A stretch of DNA of 43,130 nt from Candidatus Rokuibacteriota bacterium (GTDB taxonomy: Bacteria > Methylomirabilota > Methylomirabilia > Rokubacteriales > CSP1-6): the NCBI GenBank assembly GCA_016179875.1, contig JACPCH010000022.1, positions 1 to 43,130 on the forward strand. The letters run 5' to 3'. Of the stretch, positions 12,981 to 16,197 are shown in pieces; positions within the stretch are counted from its first letter, which is position 1, and each line of letters starts with the position of its first letter. The position numbers and the translations under genes were made by a program. The notes below the pieces were generated by a model, which saw nothing but the letters and a program-made list of their open reading frames with translations, was not told where the DNA came from and made no database searches.

Positions 12981-13013
12981 GCGGCGAGCCTATCAAACTG
13001 CCGGGGAAATTGG

Positions 13014-13019
13014 TATGAT
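13014..13019 (+). promoter_or_regulatory. Candidate -10 box TATGAT close to the ATG at 13029
   Basis: AT-rich hexamer in a GC-rich 48-bp divergent intergenic region. Confidence 0.4.
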
Positions 13020-13028
13020 CCCCCCGCG

Positions 13029-13247
13029 ATGGCGCAGGGGTTGAAGGAGCTGGTCGGACGCGTGCTGCTCGATCCGGAATTCCTGGCTGAGTTCCAGCGC
13101 GCGCCCGAGCCGGTGCTGGCCCAGTACGAGCTGAACGACGACGAGCGCGCCAAGGTCCGCCAGGCGCTCGCCCGGCTCGCCTCGACGCCGTCGCACGAGC
13201 GGCGGCACGCGTTCAGGAACGCGCTGATCCGCCGCGTGGCCACCTAG
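13029..13247 (+). CDS. Small protein resembling the Os1348-type NHLP-clan (nitrile hydratase leader peptide-like)
   Basis: MAQGLKELVGRVLLDPEFLAEFQRAPEPVLAQYELNDDERAKVRQALARL; pattern of helical leader-like small proteins, recognised by eye only. Confidence 0.5.
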   Translation: MAQGLKELVGRVLLDPEFLAEFQRAPEPVLAQYELNDDERAKVRQALARLASTPSHERRHAFRNALIRRVAT

Positions 13248-13263
13248 GCCGCGGGCGCCCGCG

Positions 13264-13764
13264 GTGCCCACGCCGTCCGAGACGCTCGCCTTTCTCCGTG
13301 ACGTCCGCCTGTTCGCCAGCTTCGCCGACGCCGACCTCGCCGCCGTCGGGAGCCGCCTGCGCGAGCGCTCGCTCCGGAAGGGCCAGGTCCTCTTCCGCGA
13401 GGGCGACCCGGGCGACGAGATGTTCGTCGTCTTCCGCGGCACGATGCTCGTGTCCAAGGCCATCACCACCAAGGTCGAGCAGGTGGTGGCGCGCGTCGAG
13501 CCGGGCGACTTCTTCGGTGAGATGAGCCTGCTCGACGGCTCGCCGCGCTCGGCCGCGGTGCAGGCGGAGACGGAGGCCGTGCTGTTCGTGTTCGGCCGCG
13601 AGGGCCTGCAGGCGCTCACCGACTCGGCGCCGCACGCCGCCGCCGCCTTCTTCTTCGCGATGGTGCAGGTCTTCATCGAGCGGCTGCGCCGCTCGACGAT
13701 GCAGGTGGCCGAGGCGACACGCTGGGGGCTGGAGGCGACCGGGCTCGACGTGGAGGGGCGATGA
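13264..13764 (+). CDS. Cyclic-nucleotide-binding (CRP-like) domain protein lacking an obvious HTH
   Basis: LRKGQVLFREGDPGDEMFVVFRG...EPGDFFGEMSLLDGSPRSAAVQAETEAVLFV; C-terminus short and amphipathic. Confidence 0.88.
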   Translation: MPTPSETLAFLRDVRLFASFADADLAAVGSRLRERSLRKGQVLFREGDPGDEMFVVFRGTMLVSKAITTKVEQVVARVEPGDFFGEMSLLDGSPRSAAVQAETEAVLFVFGREGLQALTDSAPHAAAAFFFAMVQVFIERLRRSTMQVAEATRWGLEATGLDVEGR

Positions 13765-14984
13765 CCGAGCGGCCCGCGCCGGCCAAGCTCGAGCTGCTCG
13801 TCCGCCGCGAGGACGGCGAGAGCTTCGAGCTGCGCGAGGTCGGCAGCGCGCTCGGGTTCATCAACTCGCGGCCGCAGCGCGTGCCGCCGGAATCGTACGA
13901 GCTGGCCGAGGTGAAGTCGCGGGTCGCCGGCGAGCGGCGCTATATCTTGAAGAATACGGCGACGGACCGGTTCCTGCTGCTCACCGCGCCCGAGAAGTTC
14001 CTGTGGGAGCAGATGGACGGCCACACGTCCATGCAGGAGATCGCGACCGCGTACGTGCTCCGGTACGGCGACTTCGACTTCGAGATCATCCCCAACCTCA
14101 TCCGCAAGCTCCAGCGCGCCCAGCTCCTGGTCCTCAAGATGACGTCGCGGCTGCGCCAGGCGCTCGAGCGCAACCGGGGCCGGCGGGTGGTGCGGGCCGT
14201 CGAGAAGACGCTGCTCGGGCTCGAGCGCCTCACGCTCGCGAGCCGCGACGTGCAGCCGTTCTTCCAGCGCCTGCACCGCTGGGGCGGCTTCCTGCTGTTC
14301 ACGCGGCCGGCGGCGGTCCTGTGGCTGGCGCTGGCCGTCGCCGGCGGCGTCGCCGCGGTCCGGCTCGGGCGCGACCTCGACGACGTGATGACGGGCTTCG
14401 GCGGCCACGCGGTGCGGGCGATCGTCACCGTCAAGCTCCTGTTCTTCTTCAGCATGGCCGCGCACCAGGTCGTCCACGGCCTGGCGTGCGTCCACTACCG
14501 CCGGCGCGTGCGCGAGTTCGGCTTCACGTTCCTGCACGGCTTCGTGCCGACCTTCTACGTGGACGTCACCGACATCTTCATGGCCGGCCGCCGGGCCCGC
14601 GTGGTCACGGCGGTCTCGGGCGCGCTCGTCCACCTGGTGCTCGGCGCCGCGTGGTTCCTGGTGGCGGCGCGCGCGCCGTGGGGCGGGTTCGTCCAGGCCT
14701 TCGCGGCCGCGTCGGGCATCATCCAGTGGCAGGCGCTGGTGATCTCGCTCTACCCGTTCTGCTTCATCGAGATGGACGGCTACCACGTCCTGGTGGACGC
14801 GCTCGGCGTGCCGACGCTCAAGCACGACGCGATCACGTACGCGAAGGCGCTCCTCGGCGGGCGCGGGCGGCTGGCGCACGGGCGGGAGGAGAGCCTGTGG
14901 CTCGGCTACATCGCGCTCTCGACCCTCTCCATCGCCGCCTTCATCGCCTTCAACGTCTGGCTGATCGTCAAGACGACGTCGTAA
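13761..14984 (+). CDS. PqqD-like (RRE) domain fused to an M50-like membrane metallopeptidase domain; HExxH replaced by HQVVH
   Basis: PqqD-like region YILKNTATDRFLLLTAPEKFLWEQMDGHTSMQEIATAYVLRYGDFDFEIIPNLIRKLQRAQLL; membrane domain with AAHQVVHGLACVHY and FCFIEMDGYHVLVD. Confidence 0.75.
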   Translation: MTERPAPAKLELLVRREDGESFELREVGSALGFINSRPQRVPPESYELAEVKSRVAGERRYILKNTATDRFLLLTAPEKFLWEQMDGHTSMQEIATAYVLRYGDFDFEIIPNLIRKLQRAQLLVLKMTSRLRQALERNRGRRVVRAVEKTLLGLERLTLASRDVQPFFQRLHRWGGFLLFTRPAAVLWLALAVAGGVAAVRLGRDLDDVMTGFGGHAVRAIVTVKLLFFFSMAAHQVVHGLACVHYRRRVREFGFTFLHGFVPTFYVDVTDIFMAGRRARVVTAVSGALVHLVLGAAWFLVAARAPWGGFVQAFAAASGIIQWQALVISLYPFCFIEMDGYHVLVDALGVPTLKHDAITYAKALLGGRGRLAHGREESLWLGYIALSTLSIAAFIAFNVWLIVKTTS

Positions 14985-16197
14985 CGGCGTCGGCCAGCAG
15001 CGCCGCCGCGCCGCCGACGATCTCGCGGACGCCCTCGGGGCCGGCGGCGGCGCCGGCCCGCGCGCGGAGCGCCGCCGCCTGGGCGGGGGCGTCGAGCGCG
15101 GCCAGCGCGGCCTGGGCCCGGGCGCGGAGCGCGTCGCCGGCGAGCTGGGCGAGCTCGGCGAGTGCGGCGAGCGCCACGCCCGCGCGCTCGGCCGGACGCG
15201 CCGCGGCGCGCACGCCGTCGGCCAGCGCCGCGCGGAGCCGGTCGTCCACGATCACGCGCGCCGCCTCCACCCGCACCAGGTCGCGCGCCACGCGGCCCCA
15301 GCCGAGCGTCACGTCGCGCGCGACCGCCCGGATGAACGGCGCCAGCGGCGGGGCGCTCTCCGCGGCGACCGCGGCCACGACCCCCGTCCACACGCGCCGT
15401 GGCAGCGCGCGCTGCCACGTGTCCGCCGGCGTGTCCTCGTCCAGCACGCGCACGAGCTCGCCCGACGGCGCCAGGAGCAGGTGGTCGGCCAGGCTCCGGC
15501 CCAGCGCCCACAGACCGCAGCGGACGCCGTCCCCGGCGTCGCGCACGCGGCGCGGCGCGTGGCGCACCACGCCCTGCCAGTCGGGCCGGAGATAGGTCGT
15601 GCCGCGCCACACGACCTTCTCGACGCGCCCGCGGCGCTGCACCCAGAGGCCGTCGGCCGTGACGAGCGCCTCGTGGGGCGCCGGCGCCCACGCGAGCCCG
15701 CCGGCGGCGAACGCGGCGAGCGGGTCCGGCGCGTGGGCGGGCTCGTAGCGAAACGACTCGAGCAGCGTGAGGAAGAGCTGCTCGCCGGGAAAGGGCCCCG
15801 TGTAACGCAGGCGCGCGATCCCTTGGCGCGTCGCGAGCGAGGCGATGAGGTTGAGGACCGCGGCGCCGCCGCCCGGCGGCAGCCGCGCGGGCTCGGCGAG
15901 CACGGGGATGCGCGCGATCCGGGCCCAGTCGAGCGCCTCGCCGAGCGTGAGCGGCACCGCGTCGGGGGGCAGGGCGTCCGCCCCGAGCGGGGGGGCGTCC
16001 GCGGCGCGCGGCCAGTGCCACACGCGGTCCGCGTCGCCCCACGGCGCGCCGCACGCGGCGCGCGGCTCGACGGCGAGCCACGTGCCGTCGGGCACCCGCG
16101 CCCAGGCCCGCGCGAGCGTGCCGTCGGGCCGCCAGCGCACGTCGGCGACGAGGGTGCCGCGGCGATCGACGATCCGCACGACGCGTGGATGATACAA
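14968..16197 (-). CDS. Hypothetical protein, 409 aa
   Basis: Long ORF with TTG start (MYHPRVVRIVDRRGTLVADV); convergent with and 17-bp overlapping the PqqD-M50-like gene; no family recognised. Confidence 0.6.
   Translation of the reverse strand: MYHPRVVRIVDRRGTLVADVRWRPDGTLARAWARVPDGTWLAVEPRAACGAPWGDADRVWHWPRAADAPPLGADALPPDAVPLTLGEALDWARIARIPVLAEPARLPPGGGAAVLNLIASLATRQGIARLRYTGPFPGEQLFLTLLESFRYEPAHAPDPLAAFAAGGLAWAPAPHEALVTADGLWVQRRGRVEKVVWRGTTYLRPDWQGVVRHAPRRVRDAGDGVRCGLWALGRSLADHLLLAPSGELVRVLDEDTPADTWQRALPRRVWTGVVAAVAAESAPPLAPFIRAVARDVTLGWGRVARDLVRVEAARVIVDDRLRAALADGVRAAARPAERAGVALAALAELAQLAGDALRARAQAALAALDAPAQAAALRARAGAAAGPEGVREIVGGAAALLADAVTTSS

Follow-up and report, generated by a model that had tools for sequence, protein, structure and literature searches.

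What can a small leader-like protein, a cyclic-nucleotide-binding protein and a membrane protein of peptidase fold do together when, as had been remarked of this locus and as holds here, no modification enzyme or ABC exporter borders them? Three such genes, A, B and C, lie on the plus strand of the window, the whole 43,130-nt stretch analysed. We propose that A-B-C most likely draws on the leader-peptidase parts of RiPP systems to form a membrane complex that responds to cyclic nucleotides (cNMP) and is non-proteolytic. The three plus-strand ORFs of 72, 166 and 407 aa described in the first-pass annotation are recovered, with the start of C overlapping the stop of B as ATGA. The features are as follows.

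13014..13019, plus strand: promoter-like -10 element (TGGTATGAT context), 10-15 nt 5' of the A start codon
13029-13247, plus strand: gene A, 72 aa, ATG start; Os1348/NHLP clan, of fixed length and without a variable core
13230..13244, plus strand: conserved C-terminus of A (RRVAT); the final residue is Thr in 49 of the 54 orthologs and Met in the remaining 5
13264-13764, plus strand: gene B, 166 aa, GTG start; stand-alone cyclic-nucleotide-binding protein without HTH
13711..13749, plus strand: C-terminal signature of B, E-x-x-R-W-G-L-E-A-T-G-x-D; E150, R153-G160 and D162 invariant in 55/55
13761-14984, plus strand: gene C, 407 aa, ATG start; N-terminal RRE (PqqD-like) and M50/site-2-protease fold
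13863..14138, plus strand: RRE domain of C, about residues 35-126 (borders approximate); strands, then helices in the AlphaFold model
14463..14477, plus strand: HQVVH, the altered HExxH of C; H235, Q236 and H239 invariant in 55/55
14493..14495, plus strand: H245 of C, conserved in 54/55; a few active paralogs share this His, which is therefore not specific to C
14535..14537, plus strand: gained His H259 of C, 55/55; non-His in aligned relatives
14631..14633, plus strand: gained His H291 of C, 55/55; E, D or T in relatives
14775..14786, plus strand: D339-G-Y-H342 of C, with the Asp as retained third metal ligand and H342 gained; 55/55

All three frames are real, as tblastn recovers them in the same order at all complete ortholog loci; this A-B-C order in relatives is the one on which the earlier reading had been made to depend. 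Across these loci A and B are mostly 3-41 nt apart (maximum 335), and B and C most often overlap by 4 nt. The gene preceding A, in opposite orientation, encodes a response regulator (PF00072; 12591-12980), and the downstream gene lies on the minus strand, making A-B-C an isolated operon in the window. That downstream gene (14968-16197, minus strand) encodes a 409-aa protein, overlaps C tail-to-tail, and has no match in Pfam, NCBIfam, PHROGs or PADLOC; it is conserved beside C in most family genomes and absent at some loci. For the cassette, too, a PHROGs search gave no match. A 628-aa minus-strand ORF overlapping the cassette (12993-14879) lacks support and is set aside as a chance product of GC-rich DNA.

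A protein search with C over 99 relatives reveals orthologs in 55 of 57 genomes of the family of the window, a soil-bacterium family. Of the other two, G022 shows no C ortholog and G025 yields a distant paralog only; in the other families of the phylum, no C orthologs were found among the 99 relatives, the few weak matches there being non-orthologous. The A profile finds the same 55 genomes, with essentially one copy per genome and no match outside them at E<=1e-4. Neither of two additional phyla, represented by 1 and 101 genomes, gave a match. With 55 of the 57 family genomes carrying it and none from the phylum's other families, A-B-C is a vertically inherited core operon and not a specialised cluster. 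Downstream amidase, TVP38-like and DAHP-synthase genes fix the block in one chromosomal place at most loci, and the distances of A and C follow those of DAHP synthase (Spearman 0.70 for A and 0.72 for C, 20 loci). Median dN/dS values for the operon genes are 0.40-0.48, a measure of limited use here because synonymous sites are GC-biased and saturated. One genome (G040) carries a second A, located where a contig begins and with the same gene upstream; it looks like another strain's copy of the locus. A further locus titled Actinobacteria bacterium AC_69 (L013) and a Rokubacteria locus (L014) are almost identical, and judging by this identity the L013 record looks mislabelled or contaminated.

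The first-pass annotation had read the 72-aa protein as NHLP/Os1348-type, and the HMM check upholds this assignment. NF038399 (Os1348 family NHLP clan) matches 25 of 25 family A members (best E 7.5e-11) and A of the window at E=2.1e-8, with 34.1 bits, below the curated cut-off of 40; the A family profile finds the Os1348 crystal structure 6lk7 at E 8e-5. Clan profiles and a solved member thus both place A in the clan. The structure model is moderate (pLDDT 76, pTM 0.52), with weak Foldseek matches (E about 1-4). A shares its small helical clan with Os1348 of Pseudomonas sp. Os17 and with the NHLP leaders (NF038399, TIGR03793). Os1348 sits among GNAT, HExxH and SagB-type genes and an efflux system (PMC7726476), whereas A has no such neighbours, lacks a core, and is kept family-wide.

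A measures 71-73 aa throughout and is alignable over its full length (54 orthologs). Variability is greatest at residues 49-60, and conservation rises again at 61-72, ending in RRVAT, KRWAT and similar sequences, also KRWAM. The evolutionary rate of A is no higher than that of B or C. Without a variable core after a conserved leader, and essentially single-copy, A is not a typical RiPP precursor; the earlier suggestion that it might be one is, in the usual sense, unlikely, and a RiPP cluster with diversified cores is rejected on the constancy and copy number of A. Daptide C-terminal Thr chemistry was also considered for A and rejected, given Met in 5/54 and no such enzymes nearby. NHLP leaders are stable folds recognised partly via RREs (PMC12455567), and constant carriers occur in pearlin pathways, where the membrane M50 proteins TglG/TmoG act at the carrier C-terminus (PMC10885120). 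Pearlin constant carriers and RRE-recognised NHLP leaders are the nearest functional models for A.

C had been described as a PqqD-like domain joined to an M50-like membrane peptidase, and the domain fusion stands. NF041824 (daptide intramembrane metalloprotease, RRE-M50) matches C at 5.8e-26 and is found in 37/37 members, PF02163 is found in 14/37, and the PqqD sequence match (PF05402) is marginal (E=0.022; 18/37 members). In the AlphaFold model, which is poor at residues 253-273, the N-terminal domain has the winged-helix RRE fold and matches the leader-holding lasso-peptide RRE proteins 5v1v/5v1u, including TbiB1, by Foldseek (prob 0.97-1.00, target TM 0.60-0.70, with weak E-values of 0.07-0.5). 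A PDB profile search with C gave no match.

The peptidase half of the description is not supported. The metal ligands of the HxxxH + Asp site in the membrane fold (H235, H239 and D339) are invariant in 55/55 distinct orthologs, and the catalytic Glu of HExxH is Gln in 55/55, giving HQxxH throughout. The motif NxNP before the Asp is replaced by LYPFCF, and nearly all relatives have DGYY or DGYF at the D339-H342 position. In the S2P SpoIVFB, E44Q fully abolishes proteolysis (PMC11486902); by the best available inference C is thus probably a pseudoprotease that keeps its metal site and has gained histidines. With metal ligands kept and Gln in place of Glu, C would capture or scaffold A rather than cleave it.

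The daptide RRE-fused site-2 protease MpaP/DapP (NF041824) resembles C in its RRE N-terminal to the M50 domain and in its small precursor-like partner. The match spans C residues 59-376, scoring 91.5 bits vs a cut-off of 300. C has lost the catalytic Glu. The cassette adds a cNMP-binding protein; a daptide precursor motif, an oxidative decarboxylase, an aminotransferase and a methyltransferase are all absent from it. With the score below cut-off and no Dmp-forming enzymes bordering the operon, the cassette does not qualify as a daptide system. EpeP/YydH-LiaK (epipeptide) and TglG/TmoG (pearlin) are likewise membrane M50 proteins that work on RiPP precursors, but as active proteases in known pathways, whereas C has no Glu and extra His.

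B contains PF00027 (E 2.3e-22) as the sole domain found in its 166 aa and matches no HTH domain model, bearing out its description as an HTH-less cNMP-binding protein and separating it from CRP/FNR regulators with their C-terminal HTH. Phosphate-cassette residues G85, E86, R95 and A97 are invariant in 55/55, and with PF00027 and the cassette Gly-Glu and Arg in place, nucleotide binding by B is likely. Class III cyclases are present in 36/36 family genomes searched, and the window's own genome has nine. Invariant contact residues and abundant cyclases make cNMP gating of the system plausible. The C-terminal signature is a possible docking tail. B has a cNMP domain in common with TIGR03896 (cyclic-nucleotide 'bacteriocin-type transport-associated'), scoring 50.5 vs a cut-off of 161; B differs in being single-domain, with its own RWGLEATGxD tail and no exporter here.

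All outside relatives of C examined keep HExxH, including plasmid-borne ones from other phyla, and HlyD-fused C paralogs of the same family retain HExxH, NxNP and DGYY. These PqqD-M50-HlyD proteins share the RRE-M50 core with C at 25-31% identity and, unlike C, have intact HExxH and NxNP...LDG, an HlyD-type part, and another gene neighbourhood. Such PqqD-M50(HExxH)-HlyD fusions are seen in separate loci of same-family genomes (L066, L069, L076 and others) and are likely of a peptide or adhesin export accessory type. A plasmid search with C returned partial relatives only (25-32% identity); of three whose surroundings were read, one belongs to a RiPP cluster of thiocillin-like type, which also contains genes for YcaO and lantibiotic dehydratase, and two lie in type I secretion settings. 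In the family itself, YcaO is present in 6/56 genomes and absent from 50/56, and was rejected as a partner on this count. The window's genome carries a YcaO gene (G000:C103:1393-2358), and most relatives have none.

One genome of another phylum (G278) encodes a 392-aa protein, C', with HELAH intact and without the gained histidines. The tree places C' as sister to all family C proteins (99/98; long branches, to be read with caution). Directly after C' lies B' (38% identity, E=5e-33, tail WGLDATG), giving the order C-B and not B-C. A C'-type protein occurs in 1/46 genomes of that class. The simplest reading is that the Glu loss and His gain arose within the window's family and that the pairing of B with C predates the Glu loss; G278 is, however, a single genome, and its branch in the tree is long. 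A search for A in G278 found none, so A is not required wherever B and C types pair.

An RRE-M50 protein also occurs in one genus of a third phylum (G356 and G357). In G356 it carries HEFSH and matches NF041824 at 2e-46. Two NHLP proteins follow in tandem there (TIGR03793 9e-13 and 4e-13), the first overlapping its 3' end, and none of the ORFs around them is recognisable as a modification enzyme. In view of this independent case, the pairing of NHLP-clan and RRE-M50 proteins without modification enzymes is not unique to the window. A minimal leader/RRE-M50 unit besides that of the window is seen at L152:1604-3935. Its RRE-M50 protein is extended at the N-terminus and overlaps the first member of a pair of near-identical NHLP proteins, adjoining a serpin-like gene.

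The main reading, put forward tentatively at a probability of about 0.42, is that A-B-C is a core operon made from RiPP-type leader-peptidase parts, in which A docks on the RRE of C and B tunes a complex that does not cut. A would fold as a small helical protein held by the RRE, its conserved C-terminus perhaps reaching toward the dead active site of C. C would sit in the membrane as a receptor or scaffold, capturing A, or bearing it as a subunit, without cleavage. B would sense cAMP or cGMP, dock on the complex by way of the invariant RWGLEATGxD tail of B, and switch the state of the complex. iRhoms are pseudoproteases, and C would be their S2P counterpart. Binding, metal content, gating and function of A-B-C are all inferred. 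A bolder reading, on the whole rather unlikely, has a non-proteolytic metal centre rebuilt from an intramembrane protease fold by Glu loss and His gain, under cNMP control, working on or through a constant NHLP-type carrier protein for family-wide housekeeping.

The same histidines could instead point to catalysis. C would then be a new kind of enzyme: with haem, or with one or two redox metals, bound at its M50 site, it would modify the C-terminus of A (RRVAT/KRWAM) under regulation by B. H259, H291 and H342, gained and invariant, occur together with the retained H235/H239/D339, with H245 nearly invariant, and A is a constant carrier with a conserved C-terminal end. Precedents are TglG/TmoG, which work on the last residue of constant carrier peptides (PMC10885120), and daptide precursors with their invariant C-terminal Thr (PMC10036551). 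The terminal Thr of A gives way to Met in 5/54, however, and the operon provides no electron-transfer or partner enzyme, which leaves this proposal unlikely. Less probable again is an ordinary RiPP pathway in which enzymes from other loci modify A as a precursor, C serves as leader peptidase or exporter, and B as regulator. A, RRE and M50 are all RiPP parts, the nearest family model of C is a daptide leader peptidase, and one outside relative of C lies in the thiocillin-like cluster. Against it stand the coreless, essentially single-copy A of 71-73 aa, evolving no faster than B or C, the loss of the protease Glu in 55/55, the scarcity of YcaO (6/56), and the absence of daptide enzymes beside the locus.

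It is improbable that C remains a protease, with Gln or a nearby residue activating water, and that cNMP controls its cleavage of A or of a membrane substrate of anti-sigma type; all three metal ligands are invariant and the sister C', paired with B', has an intact HELAH, but E to Q inactivates SpoIVFB (PMC11486902) and LYPFCF has taken the place of NxNP. A Pycsar-type cyclic-nucleotide anti-phage system with a membrane effector has next to no likelihood. The cNMP domain of B does match Pycsar effector models (1.7e-9 to 5.9e-7), but the match is confined to this common domain, the three genes include no cyclase, PADLOC has no model matching A or C, and inheritance that is strictly vertical, at one chromosomal position, does not fit the pattern of defence genes. 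A defence system was accordingly rejected, the PADLOC matches being limited to the common domain and Pycsar membership lacking.

The first-pass annotation had named the locus the best candidate for an undescribed system. For the combination this is fair: within the reach of these searches, no earlier description of A-B-C as a unit came up, and no open paper was found joining cyclic nucleotide-binding, site-2 protease and RiPP; the parts were already known. The operon is a natural example in which parts for leader recognition and leader cleavage apparently work outside natural-product biosynthesis, and suggests cyclic-nucleotide control of a site-2-protease-type protein via a separate subunit. 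C, with Glu lost and His gained, and its active-looking sister C' form a matched pair, each beside a cNMP-binding partner of the same type, making RRE-M50 function and the evolution of intramembrane pseudoproteases directly testable.

Upstream of A, a TANNWT element (TATGAT-type) at about 10-15 nt spacing is kept in 37/55 distinct orthologs. The -10-like element before A looks extended and is phylogenetically conserved in the window's clade. Its closeness to the A start suggests a near-leaderless (or leaderless) A-B-C transcript in the clade bearing it. Distant clades have no near-start element; some carry TATAAT farther upstream with a purine-rich stretch. In several distant clades (L118, L131, L138, L028) a tRNA-3'-end-like sequence (gcgggttcaaatcccgccggggtcacca) directly precedes A, and there the operon seems to lie directly 3' of a tRNA gene.
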